Positions 8,891 to 14,441 of a DNA stretch of 39,701 nt are shown here, in pieces. Made by a program: the position numbers and the translations under genes. The number at the start of each line of letters is the position of its first letter. Within the stretch, counting starts at the first letter, position 1. The notes below the pieces were generated by a model that did not search any database, was not told the DNA's origin, and worked only from the letters and a program-made list of their open reading frames with translations. The stretch covers positions 1-39,701 of IMG/VR virus record IMGVR_UViG_3300027971_000098; one strand, written 5' to 3'. The stretch comes from a virus.

Positions 8891-8921
8891 TAGTTCAACA
8901 TTGAGAGAGAGGAGAAGCAAG

Positions 8922-9433: not shown

Positions 9434-9512
<79 letters not shown>

Positions 9513-10905: not shown

Positions 10906-10933
10906 GAATCATCATGAGAGAGAGGAGAGAGAA

Positions 10934-11174: not shown

Positions 11175-11202
11175 GAATCATCATGAGAGAGAGGAGAGTA
11201 TG

Positions 11203-11566: not shown

Positions 11567-11595
11567 GAAGTACATTGTGAGAGAGGAGAAAGACG

Positions 11596-11763
11596 ATGTA
11601 CGATGCAGATGGATGGGATAGCTACGCCGCGTACGCTCATGAGCAGATGCTCGAGCTGATGTTCAAGGAGTCGGACGATTGCGTGGAGTTTGTCAACAAG
11701 TGGATCCAGGATCAGCTGGCCACTGCAGTTCCTACGGAAGTGTTTCAGGAGATTGGGCAATGA
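11596..11763 (+). CDS. Small acidic protein of a promoter cassette
   Basis: 55 aa (MYDADGWDSYAAYAHEQMLE start), ATG 11596 after GAGAGGAGAAAGACG. Mostly helical, with Trp and Tyr near the N-terminus and a DCVEFVNKWIQDQL helix. It overlaps the next ORF by 4 nt. Its leader contains the 11-nt segment complementary to the hairpin loop at 12064-12074. No family recognised. Confidence 0.7.
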   Translation: MYDADGWDSYAAYAHEQMLELMFKESDDCVEFVNKWIQDQLATAVPTEVFQEIGQ

Positions 11764-11954
11764 GTGCAATGAGTGATCTGGATATCGTCAAGCAAGAGGT
11801 CTTCGCGTTCTTGGATGACCTGCGGTTGAGCGGTGAGACCAACATGTACGGTGCAGCGCCGTACATAGTCGAGGTGTTTGGCGTGAACAAGGCTGAGGCG
11901 CGCGTCCTGTTGAGTGCATGGATGCAGACGTTCAGCGAGCGGCACGCAGCGTAA
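11760..11954 (+). CDS. Small conserved-type hypothetical protein
   Basis: 64 aa from ATG 11760 (ATGA overlap); ATG 11769 is an alternative. The sequence FAFLDDLRLSGETNMYGAAP, then VFGVNKAEARVLLSAWMQTF follows a pattern seen in short phage proteins (L-R-x-S-G-x-x-N-M-x-G-A-x-P, then a W-M helix), giving a helix-turn-helix-like layout. DNA binding is not shown. It precedes the structured non-coding region at 11955. Confidence 0.72.
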   Translation: MSAMSDLDIVKQEVFAFLDDLRLSGETNMYGAAPYIVEVFGVNKAEARVLLSAWMQTFSERHAA

Positions 11955-12140
11955 GAACCGACCAGGTGGTGTACGGCTGCCAAAGCCACCGGGTGACTAT
12001 GAGCAGGGTCGAGCCTGGGACATGACCCAAAAACAGGCAACGATTTCCCCCGGTGGTCTCAGTTCCTCTCTCACTCCCCGCTGAGACCACCACCAACCTG
12101 TCGCCTGTGTGCGACCCCGGACCAGTAACCGGGACCTTTT
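11955..12140 (+). ncRNA. Candidate structured RNA with an anti-leader hairpin loop
   Basis: No plus-strand gene fits. Three hairpins are visible: 11965-11990 (GGTGG/CCACC), 12006-12028 (GGGTC/GACCC) and a strong 11-bp stem GGTGGTCTCAG (12052-12062) / CTGAGACCACC (12081-12091), itself enclosed by ACAGGC (12033) / GCCTGT (12103). The 18-nt loop contains TCCTCTCTCAC (12064-12074), an exact complement of GTGAGAGAGGA in the leaders at 11577-11587 and 12184-12194. A weak terminator-like CCCGG/CCGGG stem with T residues ends the region. No separate promoter is seen, so it may be processed from the upstream transcript or act in cis on the next gene. Confidence 0.55.
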
Positions 12141-12144
12141 CTGG

Positions 12145-12173
12145 TTGTGTTTTTTTCCTGAAGATGTCATAAT
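12145..12173 (+). promoter_or_regulatory. Cassette promoter (TTGTGT-N17-CATAAT)
   Basis: -35 TTGTGT at 12145-12150, spacer starting with six T residues then CCTGAAGATGT, -10 CATAAT at 12168-12173. The leader GAAGTACATTGTGAGAGAGG matches that of the promoter at 11538. Its T-rich spacer may double as the U-tract of the preceding RNA. Confidence 0.72.
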
Positions 12174-12203
12174 GAAGTACATTGTGAGAGAGGAGTGAAA
12201 GAA

Positions 12204-12575
12204 ATGCAAGCAACCTACACCTTCGACGAAAACATCGTCAGCGATCTGCACAAGGATGCATACGGCTTCCGTCCGAGCCAGTCGTTCTGGGAATACTGGG
12301 ACGAGGCCAACGACGACCGCAAGCAGCGGATCTGGGACAACCTGCTGGATGCCCTGGATCGTGAGATGGAGTTCCAGCGTCAGCGTGAAGCTGAGGCCGT
12401 GGAGATTTTCGATGAGATGCTCGATCGACTGTACCGAGCCGGTGCGAAGGACTTCACGATGGCGATCAAGTGGGCACATGATGCGCACGAGACGAACGGT
12501 GACGATGAGTTCCTGGAGTATCATCTCGGTCTGCCGTACCGTCACATCCGCAAAGCTCGCGAGGCCACGAAGTAG
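12204..12575 (+). CDS. Hypothetical protein of a promoter cassette
   Basis: 123 aa from ATG 12204 (MQATYTFDENIVSDLHKDAY start), after GAGAGGAGTGAAAGAA; a GTG at 12195 would add three residues. Highly helical and charged. The aromatic-rich segment YGFRPSQSFWEYWDEANDDR is followed by LDALDREMEFQRQREAEAVE, a likely coiled coil. It is G+C-rich compared with the virion genes. No family recognised. The stop codon lies in the loop/stem of an intrinsic terminator. Confidence 0.78.
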   Translation: MQATYTFDENIVSDLHKDAYGFRPSQSFWEYWDEANDDRKQRIWDNLLDALDREMEFQRQREAEAVEIFDEMLDRLYRAGAKDFTMAIKWAHDAHETNGDDEFLEYHLGLPYRHIRKAREATK

Positions 12576-13718: not shown

Positions 13719-14441
13719 ATGGACCACTCCTTCATACAACGTGTTACAAAAGTAACCACTCCTAACTTCCAAGCTGCTGATTTTACATCCACCAAGTACA
13801 AGGGTGAGATTCAGCATATTATCAATACTCATTTCTTTCCTAAGTTTGATATTAACGACACTGTCAATGGTGTTGATATTAGCAAGCTTAATAGATGTAT
13901 TGATACATTGAGAAGTGAAGGGCTGGCTTACTTCACACCTATGTTTAAGTCTTACAATCTCAAAGGCATTGGTCCTGGTGAGGTCATGTTATACTTCTTG
14001 ATCGACAATGCATATCTTGGTGGCGGTAGTAGCAACGTGGATATGTTCGTTGGTTCAGAAGGTTATGAGATCAAGGCTGTGGATGTTAGTTCGGATGGCT
14101 ATGCCTACAACTTTAAGACCGGCGGGACTGTTCCTACATCTAACATCATAGAGAAGTTCTATGCTCTAGGACAGAAGTTTAAGATGACTATCTCAAGAAC
14201 AGAGATCAGCAAAGGGACTTTGGAGACCTTGCGGAGCAAGGATCAGGCCAGCTTTGATCGCATAGTTGATCAATATGTCGATGTGGCGTATAATGATTAC
14301 TTCAAGCTACACAAGTTTATCTTCATTAGAAACACCGGGAGCAAGATGGGCCGGGTTGAGTCGGTCAAGGAAGTGAAGAAGAGTGATGTCAAGCTAGAAA
14401 GAATCACGGCCGGGGTCATCAAGCCAAGAGTCAAGCTGTGA
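13719..14441 (+). CDS. Putative PD-(D/E)XK-type nuclease
   Basis: 240 aa. The middle has GIGPGEVMLYFL (E88), SSNVDMFVG (D108) and YEIKAVD (E117, K119), which fits an alpha-E / D / E-x-K active site of the PD-(D/E)XK nuclease fold. The LGGGSSNVD stretch is conserved-looking. This is motif-based inference; a structural or recombination-linked nuclease is possible. The 5' leader has no clear ribosome-binding site. A structured intergenic stretch and a late promoter follow. Confidence 0.6.
   Translation: MDHSFIQRVTKVTTPNFQAADFTSTKYKGEIQHIINTHFFPKFDINDTVNGVDISKLNRCIDTLRSEGLAYFTPMFKSYNLKGIGPGEVMLYFLIDNAYLGGGSSNVDMFVGSEGYEIKAVDVSSDGYAYNFKTGGTVPTSNIIEKFYALGQKFKMTISRTEISKGTLETLRSKDQASFDRIVDQYVDVAYNDYFKLHKFIFIRNTGSKMGRVESVKEVKKSDVKLERITAGVIKPRVKL

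Follow-up and report, generated by a model that had tools for sequence, protein, structure and literature searches.

A conserved phage RNA structure whose hairpin loop complements the leaders of a small-gene cassette block

The window, that is, the whole 39,701-base stretch of DNA analyzed here, is a virus record with T4-like genes. Its UvsX (129-1166) had ~59% identity to the counterparts in Methylophilales phage Melnitz and in cyanophages, and a DNA search of 50,697 phage records recovered no near relative of the window. Cassettes of one to a few small genes occupied 8.6-12.7 kb, each headed by a sigma-70-type promoter and a short leader with GAGAGAGGAG or a close variant of it. Most cassettes directly adjoin one another; a 186-nt space ahead of gene 12204 is the exception (Table 1). 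The promoter of the 12204 cassette, which scored under the promoter-scan threshold, aligned with the 11596 promoter-leader at 84% identity across 47 bases. Distant relatives of the phrog_21968 protein encoded by gene 12204 were noted in Sinorhizobium, Mesorhizobium, Agrobacterium, and Pelagibacter phages. Additionally, a lone tRNA-Met (CAT) was located between two cassettes at 9434-9512, with 84-87% identity to Acinetobacter phage tRNA-Met genes.

Table 1. Genes, leaders, and RNA elements of the cassette block in the window, and related RNAs in phage tRNA clusters (positions within each record)
Feature	Position	Strand	Description
Cassette leader, gene 8923	8903..8914	+	GAGAGAGAGGAG; 9-10 nt match to loop, -17.5 kcal/mol
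Cassette leader, gene 10934	10916..10927	+	9-10 nt match to loop, -17.5 kcal/mol
Cassette leader, gene 11203	11185..11196	+	9-10 nt match to loop, -17.5 kcal/mol
Leader of gene 11596 (heads the cassette mRNA ending in the RNA)	11577..11588	+	GUGAGAGAGGAG; 12-nt loop target
Small gene immediately 5' of the RNA	11760..11954	+	64 aa, no PHROG family
P1 hairpin	11961..11994	+	ACCAGGUGG (11961-11969) with CCACCGGGU (11986-11994); conserved ACGGCUGCC in loop
H-type pseudoknot, strand a	12006..12038	+	GGGUC (12006-12010) with GACCC (12024-12028)
H-type pseudoknot, strand b	12006..12038	+	GCCUG (12013-12017, in loop) with CAGGC (12034-12038)
Pseudoknot A-rich linker	12029-12033	+	
CU-loop hairpin	12052..12091	+	Stem 12052-12062/12081-12091, loop 12063-12080, anti-leader UUCCUCUCUCAC (12063-12074)
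K hairpin	12100..12115	+	GUCGC (12100-12104) with GCGAC (12111-12115)
T hairpin	12116..12133	+	CCCGG ACCAGUAA CCGGG, then ACCUUUUC; weak terminator-like, listed by terminator scan
Promoter of the 12204 cassette	12148..12178	+	TTGTGT, 17 nt, CATAAT
Leader of gene 12204 (next cassette)	12184..12195	+	GUGAGAGAGGAG; 12-nt loop target
Gene constantly 3' of the RNA	12204..12575	+	123 aa, phrog_21968, unknown function
tRNA-cluster structured RNA, L153	1501-1588	-	Unannotated
tRNA-cluster structured RNA, L154	1501-1564	-	Unannotated
tRNA-cluster structured RNA, L160	1501-1640	+	Unannotated
tRNA-cluster structured RNA, L157			Unannotated
tRNA-cluster structured RNA, L159			Unannotated

On the plus strand, the gap (11955-12150) held, in order, a P1 hairpin, an H-type pseudoknot, a CU-loop hairpin, a K hairpin, and a T hairpin. 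The initial annotation, made from the window alone, had described three hairpins and a weak terminator; we found four hairpins plus the pseudoknot, and the terminator is indeed weak, with a T-run past 12148 that varies among copies (TTTTTTT, TTTATTT, TTCATTT). The perfect stem it reported (GGTGGTCTCAG with CTGAGACCACC), which encloses an 18-nt loop, was confirmed at the same coordinates, and this CU loop was predicted to be open, with an unpaired probability of ~1. Minimum-energy folding was unremarkable (z of -1.7 for the window and -0.4 for L004), and the structural case lies in covariation. We also noted by eye an additional 5′ domain in L004 (935-1005) that resembles a second H-type pseudoknot, pairing AGUCUAG with CUAGACU and GGGGUG with CACCCC, and that is absent from the other copies.

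The RNA was present in the window and in four IMG/VR phage contigs, of which L003 (145.7 kb) and L004 were recruited via the 12204 protein, L005 via a core pattern, and L147 via the promoter-leader pattern (nhmmer 8e-20; model R1 2.7e-14). These make five copies, one of them (L147) clearly diverged. In all five, the RNA was located directly 5′ of a gene 12204 homologue and 3′ of a small cassette gene, which in L147 looks by eye like 11596. Identity between the window and L004 was 92% in the RNA core, 90-93% in the adjacent genes, and 83-90% at third codon positions.

Conservation and covariance of the stem in relatives had been proposed as a check on the structure, and compensatory changes were found in five of the six helices. 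P1 changes to ACCAGAUGG/CCAUCUGGU in L147 and to CCAUCGG/CCGAUGG in L004, and pseudoknot strand a covaries as well (UA to AU, CG to UA, GC to GU). In the CU stem, all nine inner pairs are retained in the hand alignment despite five being altered in L147, and the covariance-model alignment likewise placed both-side changes at five pairs. The K hairpin has CG to UA in L147 and reads GUCAC/GUGAC in relatives from tRNA clusters, while the T hairpin has CG to GC in L147 and reads GCYGG AUUAGUAA CCRGC in those relatives. Pseudoknot strand b is the exception, being unchanged in all copies, such that conservation is its sole support. Overall, 8 of 26 nested pairs were altered on both sides across the five sequences, a count equaled by 0 of 500 shuffles and compared with 0-2 for slid structures; the covariance-model alignment behind it is fitted to the structure and so favors it, while the hand alignment gives the same pairs. 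Read from the opposite strand, the G.U pairs of the plus strand (strand a of L004 and L147, the CU stem of L147) become A.C mismatches, which favors the plus strand as the functional one.

The DNA search of the 50,697 phage records returned no relatives of the RNA, the exact hairpin pattern had no match in IMG/VR, and the protein at 13719-14441 used as bait did not recover relatives. A relaxed core pattern gave 12 matches in bacterial genomes, none with the surrounding structure, and weak Salmonella phage matches to the T hairpin (E 0.8) lay beside or opposite structural genes; we attribute both to chance. Two weak model matches, L104 (E 0.26) and L166 (E 0.157 per record, without a tRNA in its vicinity), were left out of the count. 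The 12204 and 11760 proteins had relatives at about 120 loci, with the RNA missing at most of them, and those of gene 11760 occur in many IMG/VR contigs without it. Judged by comparative sequence evidence, this is a conserved, previously undescribed RNA structure in a group of freshwater-type phages.

In other phages, a different repeated promoter-like element (AAGTTATTGATTCTATTAG and relatives) was observed ahead of the same gene, namely upstream of 12204 homologues in L026, L032, L034, L035, L036, and L043, and in L160 near position 1150. This suggests that cassette families with their own common promoter-leader exist in other phages.

The CU loop contains TCCTCTCTCAC (12064-12074), and its complement GTGAGAGAGGA is located at 11577-11587 and 12184-12194, both as originally described; the match comprises 11 nt of Watson-Crick pairs, or 12 nt counting one G.U. 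For three further leaders, reported as matching over 9 nt, the match was 9-10 nt; the positions given for them (8862, 10877, and 11146) proved to be those of promoter -35 boxes, the GAGAGAGGA leaders themselves being at about 8905, 10918, and 11187. Among the 69 ribosome-binding regions of the window, the leader of gene 11596 formed the best duplex with the loop (-21.5 kcal/mol; mean unpaired probability 0.83) and that of gene 12204 the second best (-21.3 kcal/mol), with a mean unpaired probability of just 0.14 in its local fold; most leaders tested were predicted to be open, the 12204 leader being the exception. The top nine partners were eight cassette leaders plus gene 12735, all in the cassette block, although the cassette leaders have one common sequence and the matches to several of them are therefore not independent. 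The best region outside the block reached -12.7 kcal/mol, and the median of the 69 was -6.7 kcal/mol. Nested cofolding is unable to represent a complex between a hairpin loop and a leader.

Polypurine and polypyrimidine tracts carry little information when they pair, as cautioned at the outset, but the complementarity went beyond chance. Composition-preserving shuffles of the window loop equaled its longest match in 63 of 5000 cases, as against 1 of 5000 for the L147 loop. Of 2000 shuffles, 4 and 16 equaled the duplex energies with the two flanking leaders. The 145.7-kb relative has seven forward copies of the 10-mer GAGAGAGGAG, all within the cassette block at 41.6-45.6 kb. Its antisense occurs exactly once per record in four relative records (the 145.7-kb relative, G002, G003, and G004, the last being L147), every time in the loop. 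Moreover, the loop variants still pair with GUGAGAGAGGAG, whether UUCCUCUCUCAC (window, with U.G), CUCCUCUCUCAC (L003 and L005), or CUCCUCUCUCGC (L004, with G.U). A possible second targeting loop, ACGGCUGCC in P1, was discarded, its complement being without enrichment in the window.

The diverged copy provided a comparison between lineages. In L147, the downstream leaders are AAGAGAGAGAGGAG and AUUGAGAGAGAGGAG and the loop is CUCCUCUCUCUCUCAACUUUGAU, so that both sides are altered and the match is retained; the outcome named at the outset as refuting, leaders that do not track changes in the loop, was not seen between these lineages. The L147 loop pairs over 13 nt with the first downstream leader, and its end, UUUGAU, pairs in a second segment with the AUCA/AUCAAC that opens the leaders. 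The duplexes had energies of -24.8 and -24.7 kcal/mol, equaled by 1 of 2000 and 4 of 2000 shuffles. By match length, the own leaders were the best fit for the loop of each lineage, with 12 nt in the window and 13 nt plus the second segment in L147. By duplex energy, the window loop was clearly weaker than the L147 loop on the L147 leaders, whereas the L147 loop was about as strong as the window loop on the GUG leaders of the window. The upstream leader of L147 (GAGAGAAGAG) matches the loop over 7 nt only, which leaves feedback on the own operon unsupported in that phage.

Part of the structure extends to a broader set of phages. Model R2 matched RNAs in tRNA clusters of other large phages, namely L153 (7.2e-6 per record) and L154/L157, and weakly L160/L159, between tRNA-Thr and tRNA-Glu; E-values of such home-made covariance models are rough. 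Model R3, built solely from three tRNA-cluster RNAs, recovered the window RNA (12042-12137; 5.6e-5, sole match) as well as G001, G002, and G004. The covariance-model matches were thus reciprocal, and the common part is the 3′ K-T module (CUGUCACC..GUGAC followed by the T hairpin given above, with GUAA in the T loop), which belongs to no Rfam family. An H-type pseudoknot was seen by eye ahead of this module in L153 and, less cleanly, in L160, and on these sequences the tRNA-cluster RNAs probably have the pseudoknot in common with the window RNA. The CU-loop hairpin was seen in the cassette clade only, and the window RNA lies outside any tRNA cluster, the sole tRNA of the window being 2.4 kb upstream. 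The shared module suggests that phage tRNA clusters harbor an RNA family not described before.

In virulent T4-like phages, numerous small early genes are preceded by almost the same promoter and leader, and the turning-down of such blocks is known mostly for protein regulators, such as RegA. The initial annotation raised the idea of an antisense RNA that shuts down or times the cassette family, and this idea gains from the conserved structure, from a loop that tracks the leaders, and from the flanking cassettes being the best targets by sequence. Because the loop is complementary to the leaders and both have changed together, the RNA is probably a phage-made brake on a small early-gene block. 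Specifically, the RNA would be transcribed as the 3′ end (3′ UTR) of the 11596-11760 cassette mRNA, given that the promoter scan called no promoter directly upstream on the plus strand (11600-12140), and would probably be cut out of it by processing; its 5′ end lies about 10 nt or less past the stop codon at 11954. The CU-loop hairpin would then display the 12-nt anti-leader as a single strand, and pairing would hide the Shine-Dalgarno stretch GAGAGAGGAG of cassette mRNAs, blocking ribosome entry. Shine-Dalgarno occlusion by pairing is an established way in which other RNAs block initiation. Affinity would be graded, being strongest for the flanking cassettes 11596 (the head of the own operon) and 12204 and lower for the remaining ones. 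With early transcripts building up, the RNA would reduce protein synthesis from its own operon and from the block, as negative feedback or early shut-off.

We therefore favor, with reasonable though far from full confidence, a 3′UTR-derived antisense RNA that represses cassette translation through loop/leader pairing, above all in the flanking cassettes; its transcription, release, action in trans, repression, and timing are what we infer. A bolder version, in which one structured RNA acts in trans on the whole shuffling early-gene cassette family via the common leader as an address, with loop and leaders co-evolving and the RNA being a specialized offshoot of the wider undescribed family in phage tRNA clusters, is tentative, and we lean slightly against it. 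A role as RegA replacement was rejected, RegA being present in the 145.7-kb relative, and the RNA would therefore supplement protein control, not substitute for it. If the antisense reading is correct, an RNA that reads the common leader would be a shared off-switch for cassettes, and a gene gaining the leader would join the regulon. The joint change of loop and leader makes the pairing idea directly testable.

The complementarity could also serve in cis, as the initial annotation had allowed: in a read-through mRNA, the loop would pair with the 12204 leader about 110 nt downstream, with 12204 being translated only from the transcript of its own promoter and a free RNA being unneeded. The constant position of the RNA immediately ahead of the 12204 homologue fits such an element, as does L147, where the leader of that homologue belongs to the best-matching ones (13 nt) and the upstream leader is a poor match. 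We nonetheless judge it unlikely, given that it leaves unexplained the match to the upstream leader (11577 in the window) in four copies, the equally strong pairing in L147 with leader 990 behind the next gene (-24.7 kcal/mol), and an elaborate pseudoknot and K-T module common to the tRNA-cluster RNAs.

That module is, conversely, what speaks for another main job, either as a stable RNA with a structural or protein-binding role, of the kind found in phage tRNA clusters, where a leader family of this type is not known, or as a protector of mRNA 3′ ends. The CU loop would then be a side feature or bind another partner, such as a host Shine-Dalgarno sequence, and its first bases, CUCCU, are able to pair with any AGGAG. 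However, the loop reaches past AGGAG just as far as the phage's own leaders demand, and does so differently in the two lineages, which renders this explanation improbable, more so than an element in cis. Least credible of all is that a polypyrimidine loop in an unremarkable terminator or intergenic stretch complements nearby polypurine leaders by chance. Low sequence complexity, the folding z-scores, and the frequency with which shuffles of the single window loop equaled its match would be in keeping with chance, but covariation in all helices save pseudoknot strand b, one antisense site per record that is always in the loop, and the reciprocal divergence of loop and leader are not, and we consider it very unlikely.

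Turning from these alternatives to known systems, the window, L001, L004, L147, and L152 were scanned against Rfam 15 (up to E 1-10), with no family match for the RNA, including to C4, GOLLD, and ROOL, and models R2 and R3 had no match in the T4 rnaC/rnaD region (T4 69000-74500). The RNA is therefore new, one that may work like known systems while not being a member of them. It resembles the T4 stable RNAs C and D and GOLLD/ROOL in being a phage non-coding RNA; these are often near tRNA genes, and the 3′ module here has relatives in phage tRNA clusters.

The c4 RNA controls ant in temperate phages and is located upstream in its operon. In P1/P7, c4 is a structured phage RNA with loops antisense to a ribosome-binding site (PMC12197685), and the RNA described here resembles it and its P4 and N15 relatives in that a loop displays the complement to a ribosome-binding site in the same phage region (PMC12197685, PMC7567579). 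This loop complementarity is the trait in common, whereas the C4 covariance model had no match, and the present RNA follows a cassette of a T4-like phage, its target being a leader common to many cassettes. The satellite PLE IIR transcript, an abundant non-coding RNA complementary to several gene leaders within its own element (PMC7567579), is alike by description as one RNA facing several leaders, but lies between inverted repeats of a satellite island, while ours is in a phage cassette block and has a pseudoknotted fold. OppZ and CarZ of Vibrio cholerae are 3′UTR-derived autoregulatory small RNAs that pair with their own operon transcript and inhibit translation (PMC7398697). They share with the phage RNA the position 3′ of an operon with no own promoter called, and pairing with the own-operon leader extends here over 12 nt at leader 11577 in the window type and 7 nt at the upstream leader in L147; they differ as Hfq/RNase E-dependent host RNAs, the phage RNA pairing via a hairpin loop that fits several cassettes. 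Finally, RNAIII, RsaA, and LhrC-type RNAs have C-rich loops that bind Shine-Dalgarno sequences (PMC2837412, PMC3961350, PMC4132741). They are host-encoded and unrelated in sequence and fold to the phage RNA, and nevertheless share with it a CU-rich unpaired loop directed at a purine-rich Shine-Dalgarno stretch.
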